Assembly (NCBI GenBank): GCA_017428545.1
Contig: JAFRQR010000017.1
Coordinates: forward strand, 62,001 to 126,000
Source of the DNA: Clostridiales bacterium
GTDB lineage: Bacteria > Bacillota > Clostridia > Saccharofermentanales > Saccharofermentanaceae
Direction of reading: 5' to 3'
Length of the DNA stretch: 64,000 nucleotides
Positions 22,260-29,101 of the stretch are shown here, in pieces (position 1 is the first letter of the stretch; each line of letters begins with the position of its first letter). Both the position numbers and the translations under genes were made by a program. The notes beneath the pieces were generated by a model, which saw only the letters and a list, made by a program, of their open reading frames with translations, ran no database searches and was not told the DNA's origin.

Positions 22260-22339
22260 TTGAGCAATTTTTCTTAATATATTACGATATAGAAGGTTGA
22301 GTATGTATTTACATACATTTTTTATGGTTTGGGAACCAT
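22260..22339 (+). promoter_or_regulatory. Promoter and structured leader of the choice-of-anchor A gene
   Basis: TTGAGC (22260-22265), 17 nt, TACGAT (22283-22288) forms a possible promoter. The leader then has the hairpin GTATGTA/TACATAC (22301-22316) followed directly by a T run, and a second hairpin ATGGTT/AACCAT (22324-22339) that abuts the ribosome site TGGAGGG. The first looks like a short terminator or attenuator placed before the gene. Confidence 0.4.
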
Positions 22340-22352
22340 ATGGAGGGTTAAA

Positions 22353-24416
22353 ATGACAGAAGAAATCACGCATCAGGTATCGGCCGGCCATCGTTTTGGC
22401 CGCTGGATCAGGACTTTGTCGACAACTCTTGTGATTGCATTCTTGGGCGCACAGGGTATCGCGGCTCTTCCGGGCGGCACGGCTACAAATCATCTCTCTA
22501 ATGGCAATTCTTCAGTAGTAAATCCGGATAATCCGTTTAACTACGCACTTTATTGCTTCGGCAACTTCGAGATCGGTAATGGTGAAGGCCACCACTCTTT
22601 AGGTGCTTTTGCGATCGGCGGAGATGCCAAGTTCCAGGGACAGTATTCTTTCGCGGGAAGCAATGCGGCTCCCGGTGAAAAAGGACTTCCCCAGCTCGCG
22701 GTAGCAGGTCAGCTGAATTTTGACCAGATCAATACTCTCCGCGGTAACCTTGAGGTTTCCTCTGCAGCAAATATTCACGGTAACAGCTATAGCTTCAGTT
22801 CTGATTCTTATCATCTCGTAGAAGGCGTTTCCGCTAACTTCGGTGAGAGAAAGGCGGCTATGGTAGCTCGTGCGAATTCCGGTAATGAACTTGCGCAGAA
22901 GGCTTCCAATGCAATCCTGAAGACTCAGGGCGGCGGCGGATGGACTGAAGTCGAAGCTTCCGTTCCTTCCGGCTTTAATGCCGAGACGGACGTACTTGTT
23001 TTCAACCTTCCTGCAGGTACGAATAAGCTGTACATCCCTGAAGGTGTTAATACGATCATCAACGTCCGCGGCGATTCCGTTAACTATTTCCCGCAGCTGA
23101 TGTATGGTTCTTTCAACAGCGCAAGCACACCGAACGATGGTGGTGACGATCGTGACAGACATGTAGTTTGGAACTTTGCTGAGGCAAAGAGCATCTATAT
23201 GCCGGATAACCTGGCACTTCACGGTGCTGTTCTTGCTCCGAATGCTTATATCCAGAAGCTCGGCGGTAACTCCAATGGTGCGATCATCTGCGCATCCATC
23301 TTCACGACATCTGAGTTCCACACGGTTTCTAACAGTGTAAAGTATCCGACTCCGACTCCTACACCTACACCGGAGCCGACAGCTACACCTACACCTGTTC
23401 CGACGGAAACACCTACACCGACTCCGACCAACACACCGACACCTACACCGACAAATACGCCGGTTCCTACTGATACGCCGACACCGACAGCTACTCCTAC
23501 AGCTACGCCGGTTCCGACAGATACACCTACGCCGACGGCGACCCCTACGGCAACTCCTACGCCGACAAGTACTCCTACGGCTACACCTACACCGACCAAC
23601 ACGCCGACACCTATGCCGACGGCTACACCTATCCCGACAGCGACACCGATCCCGACTGCAACTCCGATCCCGTCGCCGACGGCAACACCTGTTCCGACAG
23701 CAACTCCGACGCCGACAAATACACCGACGCCTACGCCGACGAACACACCTACTCCGACCAATACGCCTACGCCGACGAATACGCCGACACCGACGAACAC
23801 GCCTACACCGACCAATACGCCGACGCCAACAAATACGCCTACTCCGACGAATACACCTGCTCCGACGAGTACGCCGACACCAACGAATACTCCGACGCCT
23901 TCGCCGACTCCGCTGCCGACGGCAACACCGATACCGACAGCGACTCCGATGCCGACGGCGACCCCGATACCATCGCCGACCGCGACGCCGGTACCGACCA
24001 GTACGCCGACACCGACGATTCCGCCGATAGAGGATCCGTTCGAGGAGACTGTAACACCGACTCCGATACCGACGGATACACCGACACCGACGATCCCGCC
24101 GATCGAAGATCCGTTTGAGGAGACAGTTACACCGACACCAACGGTTCCGCCGATCGAAGATTCGTACGAAGAAGAAGGTACTCCGACACCTGTTCCGACA
24201 GAGACACCTGTAGTACAGGATCCGGTTCCGGAAGTAACTTCCACACCGGTACCGACCACACCTCCGGATGAGGGTGAAGTTCTCGGTGTATCTCGTGTAC
24301 CGAAGACAGGTGATACAGGAAACAACTTGAAGATGTTCGCCGGTCTGTTCTTCCTCGTAGCTTCTGCAGCATCCTTTACTAAGGTTGTTAAGAAGAAGGA
24401 AGAAGACGAAGAGTAA
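22353..24416 (+). CDS. Choice-of-anchor A cell-wall protein with Thr-Pro stalk and VPKTG sorting signal
   Basis: A 687-residue exported protein. After a signal peptide (hydrophobic core about 24-42) comes a choice-of-anchor A domain (about 55-325: [11 protein letters not shown], the [12 protein letters not shown] region, and [13 protein letters not shown] near its end). About 330-640 is a Thr-Pro-Thr stalk with three copies of a PPIEDPFEE-like insert. The C-terminus has VPKTGD, a hydrophobic helix and a KKKEEDEE tail, i.e. a sortase signal of LPXTG type with Val for Leu. It is presumably anchored to peptidoglycan and displays the globular domain above the wall; ligand unknown. ATG 22353 follows TGGAGGG. 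An upstream in-frame start at 22329 is within the leader hairpin. Confidence 0.85.
23346..24270 (+). repeat. Thr-Pro codon repeat tract
   Basis: About 0.9 kb of alternating ACx/CCx codons with interspersed GCx, GTx and ATx, encoding the stalk. Synonymous codons vary throughout, so it is not a simple nucleotide satellite. Three copies of the [16 protein letters not shown] insert occur near its end. Confidence 0.9.
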
Positions 24417-24525: not shown

Positions 24526-27500
24526 ATGATCGATCATTATAATGCGTTTATTTCTTATAGACATGCGCCGCTGGATATTAAAGTTGCGGAGCACATCCAT
24601 TCCAAACTTGAACATTTTCATATTCCTGCGAAGATCCGTAAGAAGACGGGAATGAAACGTATACAGCGTATCTTCCGAGATAAAGATGAACTGCCGATCA
24701 CAAGCGATCTTTCGGATACGATCTCCCATGCGCTTATGCACTCTGACTTTCTGATCGTTATCTGCTCCAAAAGCACATGTGAGTCCGAGTGGGTAAAGCG
24801 TGAGATCGAGTATTTTCTGCAGACACATTCCAGAGACCATATCCTTGCCGTACTTGCTGAGGGTGAACCCTATGAGGTACTTCCTGAGCAGCTTCTGAAA
24901 GAAGAAGTGAAGATCTTAAATCCCGATGGAACTACTTCGACTTATCTTCATGAGAAAGAGCCGCTGTGCTGTGAATACCGCCAGTCTTTCCGTAAAGCCG
25001 ATAAGGATGAGCTTCCGAGACTTGCCGCGGCTCTGATCGGCTGCTCCTATGATGAGCTGATGAATAGAAGACGTGCTTATCAGATGCAGAGGATCACTGC
25101 CCTCGGCCTGACTCTTACAGCTCTGGCTGTCGGTTTCTCCGGCTTCTTGATCTGGAGTCGTATGAAGATACAGAAGAACTATAGAGATTCTCTTAGAAAC
25201 CAGTCGAAATACCTTGCTTATGAATCGGAAAAACTGCTTTCGGAAGAAAAACGCATCGAAGCGATCCAGCTTGCTCTGGCGGCACTTCCGACCGATGATA
25301 ATGACCGCCCGGTCACATCAGAAGCCATCCGTGCGTTGACGGATTCTACTCTTGCTTACCAGCCGCTTTCCGGGAATACGATTCAATCTGTCTGGAATTA
25401 TCAGACCTCAACGAGGATCGAGCGAATGGCGCTTTCACCGGAAAGAACATCGTTTACCGTTTCCGAAAGCACCCAGACGGTGACTACATGGGATACAAAG
25501 ACCCATGAAGTGATTTTTGAAAAGGCATTTTCCGGAAAGACTGTATTCGCTCTCAATTATATAGGGGATGAAGATCTTCTGGTCACAACAGATAAGACCG
25601 TGTATATGATCGACTTGAATAAGTCAAAAGTGACATGGGAATACTCACTTCCGGATCTGAGCAATTTCAACACCTATGGTCCGCTGTTTCCTGAAGATAG
25701 GTCCTCTATCTATCTGCCTTCTTCAGGCCGTATTATTCTTCATTTTTCTATGGATGGACAGCTTATGGAACAATATGAGCTTCCTTTGATGATTGATGAT
25801 AAAGTTGCGACTTTCTCGAATTATGCGCTTTCTCCGGATGGAAATAAGATAGCTTTTCATTTGAATAGTGATTCTAATTATATAGGTGTATTTACATTTG
25901 CAGACAAATCGATTCAAAGAACCGAAATCGCAGGACCGGATGTTCGAGAACTCATCTGGGCCGATAATGAAACGGTCGTCTTTGTTGAATTTGACTATCT
26001 TTCTTCTGAAAACCTTCTTCGTGACACAAACATCGTCGTACAGCCACATACGGATATTGTTTCTTGTGTTGATACAAGTACGATGACAAGAAAGTGGTCG
26101 AAAGAGTTCAAATATAATGTCAATTATTCATTCAGTGAACTTTTAAACCTTCCTGCCAGAAATGCGGTAGCCTATGAAACGGGGGATGGGATCGTCGTGT
26201 ATTCCGTAGAAACAGGCGAAGAACTCGGGCTTTATATGATCCAGCAGGTGGTGGTCGATATCGATGATAGTGACGGGGACGGCTCTTTTATTTTCGTTAC
26301 CCAGTCCGGCGGATTAGGTAGCCCTTTAGACAGTATCAGCACCAATACCACGACGATCAGTTACGAGTTTGTGGATAAGATCCGGCAAGTACTTATCGGC
26401 GATGGTGTGTATGTTCTTCAGGATGGAGGCAGTGAAGTACTTTACTATGATCTGTATGTTTCTGATTCCGAGTGGACGGAAATCGATGAAGATGTGGTAC
26501 TTTCGAGTCTCTATGAATTCTATACGGATGATGATTATCTGGTCATCTCATCGATCGATAGTGAAAAAAAGACCTCTCGTATATTGGCTTATGACGCGAA
26601 TGATACGGAACTGCTGTTTGATATCATGCTTCCTTCTGACGGTTATTCCGGTTCAAGAATTCTCGGCATTTACAAGGATAAACTTTATGTTTTGGATCAT
26701 GATCCGGATTTTCAGGTTATTTTGTATGAGATCTCCATGAAGAACGGAGAACTGGAAAATGAGACCATTCTCGGCTCATCGTATATCTCTCTTTCGGACT
26801 ACTGTAGTATGACCGACAATTATCTTACCCATTACGTCAGAAGCGATTATAGTTCGGACTTTCAAATATGCCTTCTTGATTTGAAGACCGGCAAAGAAGA
26901 GTTATTCGATATGCCGGAAAGTGATTTGTTTCCGAGATCGGCTCCGAAATACTATCCGGAATATAAAGTGATCCATTTTTCAACGGAAACAGAAGACTAT
27001 ATGCTTGATGTAACAGATGAATCCTATATCGATTTTGATGTTCCGGGTGACTGGAGCATGACATTTGTAGTTGAGCATGACAGTAAAGGGGAGAGATGGA
27101 TCCTTTCGGACAGCAGCCGTGTCATCGTTTTTAATTCGGAAGGACGCCAGGAGATGCAATTGGAATGTAATGGCCTTTCTGCGATTGGTGCGACTTTCTT
27201 AAGAGAAGGAAAATCAGACGAACAGATCCTTGTCGTATTCGATGACGGTTCTTTGTACCGGTATGACGCCAAGGATGGTAGTTTCCTCGGGAAATCCGAG
27301 GTGGAAACCTACTATAATTCCATGGTCAGAGCGAAGTTTCGTGTATTCGAGGACCAGAACCTGATCTATATCCAGACAGGCGAGATCACGGATATCGTGG
27401 ATATGAACGAATGGATCGAACTTGGGGTCGTTTGGAATTCCATGGGCTATCATGCACCAACGGACCGGTTCCTTTCTTTCTCGTTTAAGAGCATGAAAGA

Positions 27501-27618
27501 GATCCGTGTCGGATACTTCCGGCACTATACCCTTTCTGATCTTACCGAGAAAGCTTACCGGATCATAGGCGATTTGGAACTGACCGAAGAACAAAAATCG
27601 CAGTACGGAATCAGTTAA
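24526..27618 (+). CDS. TIR domain protein with transmembrane helix and beta-propeller
   Basis: A 1030-residue protein. Residues about 4-175 form a TIR domain: YNAFISYRH at the N-terminus, IFRDKDELP as the BB-loop region, DFLIVICSKS, and CESEWVKREIEYF in which Glu93 occupies the place of the catalytic Glu of TIR NADases. One transmembrane helix follows (about 190-210). Then comes the ALxALP-type segment (IEAIQLALAALP) common in bacterial TIR-WD40 proteins, and about 700 residues of irregular beta-propeller-like repeats (MALSPERTSFTVSE, ALSPDGNKIAF). The predicted layout puts TIR inside the cell and the propeller outside, which suggests sensing of an outside ligand. NAD cleavage and a defence role are inference. 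The 3' end overlaps the convergent DHH gene by 8 nt. Confidence 0.82.
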   Translation: MIDHYNAFISYRHAPLDIKVAEHIHSKLEHFHIPAKIRKKTGMKRIQRIFRDKDELPITSDLSDTISHALMHSDFLIVICSKSTCESEWVKREIEYFLQTHSRDHILAVLAEGEPYEVLPEQLLKEEVKILNPDGTTSTYLHEKEPLCCEYRQSFRKADKDELPRLAAALIGCSYDELMNRRRAYQMQRITALGLTLTALAVGFSGFLIWSRMKIQKNYRDSLRNQSKYLAYESEKLLSEEKRIEAIQLALAALPTDDNDRPVTSEAIRALTDSTLAYQPLSGNTIQSVWNYQTSTRIERMALSPERTSFTVSESTQTVTTWDTKTHEVIFEKAFSGKTVFALNYIGDEDLLVTTDKTVYMIDLNKSKVTWEYSLPDLSNFNTYGPLFPEDRSSIYLPSSGRIILHFSMDGQLMEQYELPLMIDDKVATFSNYALSPDGNKIAFHLNSDSNYIGVFTFADKSIQRTEIAGPDVRELIWADNETVVFVEFDYLSSENLLRDTNIVVQPHTDIVSCVDTSTMTRKWSKEFKYNVNYSFSELLNLPARNAVAYETGDGIVVYSVETGEELGLYMIQQVVVDIDDSDGDGSFIFVTQSGGLGSPLDSISTNTTTISYEFVDKIRQVLIGDGVYVLQDGGSEVLYYDLYVSDSEWTEIDEDVVLSSLYEFYTDDDYLVISSIDSEKKTSRILAYDANDTELLFDIMLPSDGYSGSRILGIYKDKLYVLDHDPDFQVILYEISMKNGELENETILGSSYISLSDYCSMTDNYLTHYVRSDYSSDFQICLLDLKTGKEELFDMPESDLFPRSAPKYYPEYKVIHFSTETEDYMLDVTDESYIDFDVPGDWSMTFVVEHDSKGERWILSDSSRVIVFNSEGRQEMQLECNGLSAIGATFLREGKSDEQILVVFDDGSLYRYDAKDGSFLGKSEVETYYNSMVRAKFRVFEDQNLIYIQTGEITDIVDMNEWIELGVVWNSMGYHAPTDRFLSFSFKSMKEIRVGYFRHYTLSDLTEKAYRIIGDLELTEEQKSQYGIS

Positions 27619-29101
27619 CTGATTTAGCTTCCTGATAAAGAAGCGGGAACAGGTGCTTCTTTATAACGTAGATATCGTGTTCATCTTCCGAACGGACTGC
27701 GATATAATCGCCGACATTTCCAAGATAGTATTTTTCTTCATCCCACAAGGTGAAGATCTTTACGCTACGCTCCAAGGGCTTGGCGTAGATCAGACCGCCT
27801 CCGTGGCTGATCATGGCCTGGGCATAAGACATAACGTCAGTCTTTTGTCCGGTCGCGAGGCTCTTGATGCTCGGGGCATATTCAAATGTCTTCGAATACG
27901 GACGGTTAAGAGACATATATCTTGCGAAAAGCTTTTCGCGGTTCGTCGGATATACTTCGCCTTCGATACCGATCATGAGGTAACTGTCTTCTTCCACGGA
28001 AACGACAACGTCGCCTTCGAGAGTACGGATCTCGACCTGTGTCTTTGGCGGGAAGATATCTGCCAGGTGCACGGCACCGACTTCCTGAGGCCGTTTCTCA
28101 TAAAGCAGCATATCGGAAGTATCCAGGACCGTATCCTTGGTATAAAGGATCGTAAACATTTCAAAGTATTTCTTCATGCGCTCTTTAAGAAGTGCAGAAG
28201 GATCCATATCCAGTTTTTCCGGACGAAGAGAACCGCCGGCTTTGTACATGTGTCCGCCGCCTCCTCCGACACCTTCTGCCAGGAAGGCCGCAAGTTCATT
28301 GGCATGGACTTCCTTGGTGCAGGAACGGACGGAGAATTTTACTTCATACGGGCTTACATAATAGGCCAGGCATACGTCGACTTTATCGGTCTCCAGAGAA
28401 AAATCACTGATGACGCCCAGGATATTCGGATCGCAGGGCTCAGATCTTAAGATCAGATAGTTGTGGTCTTCATAGAACTCATATTCAAAGATCGTCTTTC
28501 CGGTGATCTTTAATTCGGTAAGAGAGATATTTGCGTTGCTCATACGCGTGATCAGGCTTCTCTGGATGACCAGGGAATCCAGCATATCACGGTCGAGCGG
28601 GTGGGATACTTCGGAAAGACGGTTGGTATCCGAGAAAAGACCATAGTAGAGGGCAGTGGAGAGGTTCCTCTCATCAGAAAAATCAAGACCTTCATTTCGG
28701 ATCAGGTTCCATACGACTGTGGCACAGCTGCCGATGTTGCTCTTTACTTCTGCATATTCAGGAAGAGCTACGGTCACCTGATGATGATCGATGATCGCGA
28801 TATTCTGCGCCTTTGTCGTTGTGACATTTCTCTGACCGTACTGGCAGTCGACGGTGATCAGAAGCTGCGGATTGTCATCAAAGTCCGGTTCATAAGTGAT
28901 CGGGATAGAAAGCTCTTCGAGCATGATCTTGAGATTGCTTTTCTGGATCTTATTGTTTCCCCGATAGATGAAACGGACTTTTTTCTGTTTCTTCGTGAAG
29001 TACCAATGCAGCGCGGCTCCGCTGGCAAGGGCATCTGCGTCCGGGTTATCATGACATTGGATCACAATATCATCGAATTTAAGAAGTTCCGAAAGTCTCA
29101 T
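27611..29101 (-). CDS. DHH/DHHA1 phosphoesterase (NrnA-like) with duplicated C-terminal module
   Basis: A 496-residue protein. The DHH domain has HDNPDADALASG (17-28), VDCQ (85-88) and IIDHH (103-107); the DHHA1 domain ends in GGGGGHMYKAGG (279-290). This core resembles NrnA oligoribonuclease / pAp phosphatase, which in other Firmicutes also degrades pApA from c-di-AMP. Family members are usually 310-340 residues. Here about 175 residues follow with two related beta modules (about 355-395 and 446-489), each containing a TL, a DY and an LFxxxY pattern. Ribosome site AGGAGCATGCC precedes the start. It is convergent with the TIR gene. Confidence 0.82.
   Translation of the reverse strand: MRLSELLKFDDIVIQCHDNPDADALASGAALHWYFTKKQKKVRFIYRGNNKIQKSNLKIMLEELSIPITYEPDFDDNPQLLITVDCQYGQRNVTTTKAQNIAIIDHHQVTVALPEYAEVKSNIGSCATVVWNLIRNEGLDFSDERNLSTALYYGLFSDTNRLSEVSHPLDRDMLDSLVIQRSLITRMSNANISLTELKITGKTIFEYEFYEDHNYLILRSEPCDPNILGVISDFSLETDKVDVCLAYYVSPYEVKFSVRSCTKEVHANELAAFLAEGVGGGGGHMYKAGGSLRPEKLDMDPSALLKERMKKYFEMFTILYTKDTVLDTSDMLLYEKRPQEVGAVHLADIFPPKTQVEIRTLEGDVVVSVEEDSYLMIGIEGEVYPTNREKLFARYMSLNRPYSKTFEYAPSIKSLATGQKTDVMSYAQAMISHGGGLIYAKPLERSVKIFTLWDEEKYYLGNVGDYIAVRSEDEHDIYVIKKHLFPLLYQEAKSVN

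Follow-up and report, generated by a model that had tools for sequence, protein, structure and literature searches.

The locus

The window, by which we mean the whole stretch of 64,000 nucleotides that was analysed, is part of a 2.9-Mb genome (98% complete) whose nearest relatives are MAGs from rumen and gut Clostridia. We studied a gene for a predicted TIR receptor together with the genes on either side of it. The features are listed below, each with the evidence behind it.

22329..24416, + strand: wall-anchored ice-binding-like/choice-of-anchor-A protein, probably outside the module (Pfam, locus comparison)
24526..27618, + strand: TIR - TM - double propeller receptor gene, 1030 aa (ORF, Pfam, AlphaFold2 model, 67-member alignment)
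24526..24918, + strand: TIR domain, residues ~1-131, W89 and E93 invariant (Pfam, ortholog alignments, TIR profile against PDB, model)
24919..25092, + strand: conserved juxtamembrane segment, residues ~132-189, EPLCC...ELPRLAAALIGCSYDELMNRRR (orthologs 53-98% identical, much more than in the propeller)
25093..25161, + strand: transmembrane helix, residues ~190-212 (sole hydrophobic peak; within modelled helix 175-239)
25162..25377, + strand: helical stalk, residues ~213-284 (AlphaFold2 model with hydrophobicity/identity profile)
25378..27525, + strand: double WD40-like propeller, residues ~285-1000, fast-evolving, followed by short C-terminal helices (model, Foldseek, identity, dN/dS)
27611..29101, - strand: DHH/DHHA1 phosphoesterase, 496 aa, with an extra C-terminal region 320-496 (Pfam, fold, linkage)

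The TIR gene and the DHH gene are convergent: they meet tail to tail and overlap by 8 bp across the TIR stop codon. On the other side lies the wall-anchored surface protein that an earlier note on this DNA had pointed out. It consists of an ice-binding-like adhesive domain, a very long TPTPTP-rich stretch and an LPXTG-type anchor, so the neighbour is real; it is conserved only within the genus, where it precedes the TIR gene in most loci. We rejected it as a partner of the TIR protein, as it is constant in the genus and absent from the loci of other families.

Anatomy of the receptor

Three Pfam families identified a TIR domain at residues 8-114: TIR_2 (E 1.1e-10, 42.5 bits against a cut-off of 28), ThsB_TIR (4e-9, 37.2 against 21.2) and TIR (6e-5, 23.3 against 21.3). 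Propeller families matched residues 277-448. All 19-mers with a hydrophobicity above 1.6 start at residues 190-193 and none were found elsewhere in the protein, so that the TIR domain and the single membrane helix claimed in the earlier note are both borne out.

The AlphaFold2 model, built from 67 orthologs, reached a mean pLDDT of 89.3. It places the beta/alpha elements of a TIR fold at residues 5-131, one continuous helix comprising membrane span and stalk at 175-239 and beta-strands over residues 286-1000. The top Foldseek matches of the model were tandem-WD40 proteins, e.g. Utp21 and Apaf-1, so the best reading of the part beyond the membrane is a pair of propellers. The structure prediction that the earlier note had called for thus returned both the TIR fold and the beta-propeller. 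Its estimate of about 800 outside residues needs correction: the propeller is present, but it spans ~715 residues and apparently forms two propellers mounted on the helix and stalk. From this layout the propeller side would lie outside the membrane.

The gene structure varies among the relatives. In some of them the receptor gene is split into two open frames (G016:C14:19135-22154; L180 6461-9559), and in L103, L104 and L116 it is duplicated in tandem, side by side.

Catalytic residues of the TIR domain

E93 was invariant first in 22 and then in 67 orthologs, as was W89 four residues earlier (W-x-x-x-E). Compared as a whole with the PDB sequences the protein gave chance matches only, and a profile of the TIR part was needed. 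This profile found plant TIRs (Roq1, L6), bacterial TIRs and the AbTIR NAD hydrolase, and in the printed alignments E93 shares a column with the Glu of the plant W-C-x-x-E motif. The putative catalytic Glu is therefore kept, as the earlier note had proposed, and the domain may act on NAD+ or another nucleotide.

The genome contains three other TIR_2 matches, one of them a paralog of the same TIR-TM type (an 831-aa open frame, G000:C31). This second TIR-TM paralog (~820 aa; G000:C31:279223-280119, L148 6673-9135) occurs in most genus genomes at a fixed site of its own and has no DHH neighbour. Two other TIR genes of a different type (L003, L004; G000:C22; YDVFICYKETD...) lie ~30 kb apart in the same genome.

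The adjacent DHH/DHHA1 protein

The neighbouring protein matched the Pfam families DHH (E 3e-13) and DHHA1 (9e-7), and both domains with their metal-binding motifs were present in 39 of 39 family members. The motifs HDNPDAD, VDC, DHH, (S/T)DT and GGGGH are all kept and are invariant or nearly so in these 39 relatives. We compared residues 1-318 of the model (pLDDT 88.7) with known structures. The match to TmPDE with pApA (5o4z) had a Z score of 24.5 over ~300 aligned residues, and those to GdpP (5xsp), Rv2837c and DhhP had Z scores of ~22-23. The protein thus has the fold of the pApA/c-di-AMP/nanoRNA phosphodiesterase branch. It stayed below every NCBIfam equivalog cut-off (PPase 37 bits against 283, NrnA 21 against 350), and PADLOC returned no match for it.

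Beyond the matches to known phosphodiesterases there is a conserved extra region of ~175 residues. This C-terminal part (320-496) is beta-rich and carries a GDYIA...D.YVI motif. No Pfam family passes its threshold there; a faint PGDYG match (E 0.077) was seen in 1 of 39 members.

Linkage and co-occurrence of the two genes

We clustered the neighbours of the TIR gene in 100 loci, some of which are the same place fetched twice, and encountered the DHH family in 75 of them; the next family occurred in 17. A second sample comprised 80 loci from the named genome collection, of which 6 end at a contig edge. Among the 74 loci with the partner or both flanks visible, the DHH gene adjoins the TIR gene (<400 bp) in 58, with the limit that the genus loci share one neighbourhood and are not mutually independent. 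The remaining 16 loci, with both flanks visible, had no adjacent DHH gene. The 58 linked pairs are convergent in 43 cases, on the same strand with DHH first in 14 and TIR first in 1; none are divergent. Same-strand pairs look like operons, and their start and stop codons often overlap as ATGA or similar. The outer flanks of the pair differ between clades and therefore the pair is not one inherited block. No gene family other than DHH recurs beside TIR across clades, and the comparison of neighbours across the loci revealed no conserved third gene that could act as an effector reading the signal. The earlier note had described the receptor as encoded alone. The survey of neighbours in relatives overturns this, as the receptor has a conserved partner in the DHH/DHHA1 gene next to it, and the link between the two genes is strong.

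The two genes also occur together across genomes. Among 245 genomes of the class we found DHH in 16 (E<=1e-60), TIR in 22 (E<=1e-40) and both in 14 compared to 1.4 expected (Fisher 1.6e-15); among 150 genomes of a second family the counts were 24, 15 and 11 compared to 2.4 expected (Fisher 1.6e-7), where both Fisher values ignore shared ancestry and are inflated by it. All 9 class genomes with a TIR match of E=0 carry DHH. In the second family the two genes lie close together in 10 of the 11 genomes, in one of them with an intervening gene.

DHH proteins away from this receptor

In genomes without this TIR receptor the DHH gene can lie next to a different TIR gene. In L165 it overlaps the gene of a 311-aa TIR protein with several hydrophobic segments, in L166 it lies 20 nt after the gene of a TIR-TM-DUF6273 protein and in L168 it adjoins the gene of a 916-aa TIR-TM protein. 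On a tree of 89 DHH proteins, some long branches of which are unsure, TIR linkage requires at least 7 state changes and is concentrated in one large clade.

DHH is also kept in some genomes without this TIR, e.g. G008, and most genus genomes have a second copy away from TIR. More distant copies (L161, L169, L173) lie beside IMP cyclohydrolase, purH-like, guaB-like or GGDEF-EAL genes, so this branch may have a role connected with purines or c-di-GMP. Since some genomes keep DHH without this TIR and copies sit in purine or c-di-GMP neighbourhoods, the family has roles beyond TIR and is not exclusive to it. Full-length relatives with 40-42% identity were also encountered in faecal records labelled 'Bacteriophage sp.' (MT836910.1 2915-4402, MT836060.1 4201-5769), which are either phage cargo or mislabelled bacterial DNA.

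Evolutionary rates and distribution

The identity of the orthologs to the window protein ranged from 60 to 97% in the TIR domain and from 53 to 98% in the juxtamembrane segment, compared to 16-83% in the propellers. For the window and its nearest relative L006 we obtained dN/dS values of 0.028 (TIR), 0.045 (DHH) and 0.32-0.38 (propellers), so that in this pair the propeller diverges about ten times faster than the TIR part. The inside part is nearly frozen and the outside part changes faster, as in a receptor. Sequence, predicted structure and rate contrast together support the layout that the earlier note had described, with a TIR domain and its catalytic Glu inside, one helix and a propeller outside. 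No value exceeded 1 in the window-L006 pair, where that of the propeller was raised yet below 1, and we make no claim of positive selection or of an arms race; a single value above 1, obtained for two very close sequences, comes from tiny counts and is not meaningful.

A strong match to the receptor family was found in 20 of 22 relatives from the same genus, while G020 had none and G008 a trace only. The genus loci are mostly at a conserved site beside housekeeping genes, and both the TIR and the DHH gene are near-core in the genus. Wide, core-like conservation without links to defence, which the earlier note had set against its own reading, is thus largely what we encountered within the genus. 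In the second family the occurrence of TIR is patchy (15 of 150 genomes).

A proposed two-gene signalling module and its alternatives

Gene structure, domain anatomy, the conserved catalytic residues of both proteins, linkage, co-occurrence and rate contrast were observed directly, and the simplest model built on all of them is that the receptor makes a signal and the enzyme removes it. We give even chances to a two-gene module of this kind, in which a membrane TIR receptor produces a nucleotide signal that the DHH enzyme takes away. The receptor would be oriented with its N terminus inside, and the fast-evolving double propeller would sense a ligand outside the membrane. The signal would pass through the single helix and the stalk and cluster the cytoplasmic TIR domains. 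These would act through E93 on NAD+ or another nucleotide and release a nucleotide product, which the DHH/DHHA1 enzyme would hydrolyse, directly or as a derivative, and so set its level and switch the signal off. That the substrate of the DHH enzyme is the TIR product we infer, as we do the output of the pathway and the nature of the ligand. A fuller version, in which an outside signal triggers the synthesis of a messenger, either NAD-derived or a cyclic nucleotide, which is then erased by a DHH phosphodiesterase that the host dedicates to it, and in which this off-switch circuit is reused with several kinds of membrane TIR, is plausible at somewhat less than even chances. With a predicted nucleotide phosphodiesterase as its conserved partner, the receptor would more likely serve signalling, with this enzyme as a dedicated off-switch or effector, than plain destruction of NAD.

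An effector role of the DHH protein fits the data nearly as well as the off-switch, and the sole difference is the role of the extra C-terminal region. Region 320-496 would bind the TIR product and activate the phosphoesterase against nanoRNA, pAp, c-di-AMP or another nucleotide pool. Such a system needs just two gene products for sensor and effector, it would account for the conserved ~175 residues beyond the known phosphodiesterases and it agrees with the lack of any other effector gene linked to the pair. We still consider it unlikely, as the family is also found away from TIR genes and thus is not everywhere tied to a TIR signal, and its C-terminal region revealed no ligand-binding fold. 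Somewhat more doubtful is a TIR domain that is a non-enzymatic or weakly enzymatic scaffold, whose clustering recruits the DHH protein to the membrane and thereby controls c-di-AMP or a similar messenger. The strong gene linkage and the closeness of the DHH fold to pApA/c-di-AMP phosphodiesterases would suit this, and TIR domains are often protein-interaction modules (PMC7075850). The invariance of W89 and E93 in 67 orthologs is what catalysis would predict, however, and since DHH also pairs with quite different TIRs, a common product is more likely than one interface.

Defence systems often employ TIR NADase effectors, and phage contact on the outside could trigger an abortive destruction of NAD+ by the TIR domain. 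The receptor layout with its fast-evolving outside part and the weak ThsB profile matches (see below) agree with this. On the other hand nearly all members of the genus carry the gene, at a fixed site next to housekeeping genes, and plain NAD+ depletion needs no dedicated phosphodiesterase. We also scanned ten window genes besides TIR and DHH with PADLOC and found no defence match apart from a resemblance of a glycosidase to GlgB; for these ten genes the statement of the earlier note that no other defence gene is nearby holds. A role in phage defence is weakened by the near-core conservation and the lack of defence neighbours, though the patchy occurrence of TIR in the second family would suit it; we regard it as possible but unsupported and, all in all, as improbable. 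The adjacency might finally be inherited synteny without functional meaning, given that the whole neighbourhood is conserved within the genus. The two main orientations, the unrelated outer flanks, the operon overlaps, the co-occurrence and the pairing of DHH with other TIR types all speak against this, and the present samples point to DHH adjoining TIR more often than any other gene, so we assign it hardly any weight.

Bacterial TIRs have mostly been studied as intracellular defence enzymes. If the module of receptor and off-switch is true, TIR chemistry serves outside-in signalling, and rumen and gut Clostridia have a candidate off-switch enzyme in a host phosphodiesterase that is genetically linked to membrane TIR receptors. 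The idea is directly testable because the catalytic part of either protein can be produced on its own.

Comparison with known systems

The receptor resembles Toll-like receptors in how it would work, with an outside repeat domain, one membrane helix and a cytoplasmic TIR. Toll-like receptors differ in having LRRs and an adaptor-binding TIR, whereas here the order is reversed (N-terminal TIR), the outside part is a propeller and the TIR is predicted to be enzymatic. The likeness to Thoeris ThsB lies in a TIR with a catalytic Glu and a predicted NAD-derived signal. The ThsB models of PADLOC matched the receptor weakly (E 7e-4 to 0.01), and the Pfam family ThsB_TIR was above its cut-off. In Thoeris ThsB works with ThsA or a macro-domain effector, whereas here the TIR is membrane-anchored and the partner is a DHH phosphoesterase; we found no linked ThsA effector among the neighbours that recur across clades. 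A search of 25 genomes for STALD/SLOG effector domains gave no match, and the control search was equally silent.

Over residues 1-319 the DHH protein folds like TmPDE (TM1595), GdpP, Rv2837c, DhhP and NrnA (Z 21-25), and it has all their catalytic motifs; it differs from them by the ~175-residue C-terminal extra and by its TIR linkage. Its proposed function resembles that of the RyDEP phage glycosidases, which remove TIR-made cADPR signals (PMC13232231). RyDEP proteins are phage-encoded glycosidases with a RyR fold, whereas our candidate is a host-encoded DHH phosphoesterase. According to the 2026 preprint no proteins were known to hydrolyse 2'cADPR or 3'cADPR before its phage glycosidase (PMC13232231). 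In the open-licence literature we found no paper on this TIR-DHH/DHHA1 pair.

Bacterial TIR groups have diverse architectures (PMC7075850). Annotated TIR-TM-repeat proteins ('toll/interleukin-1 receptor domain-containing protein', e.g. on the Butyrivibrio fibrisolvens plasmid pNP243) have the N-terminal TIR in common with the receptor. The longest matches are alike through the membrane helix and the stalk, but do not fully cover the double propeller, and there was no DHH neighbour in the one annotated region examined. Shorter TIR-TM-repeat matches were observed in Rhizobium, Novosphingobium and Fusobacterium records.
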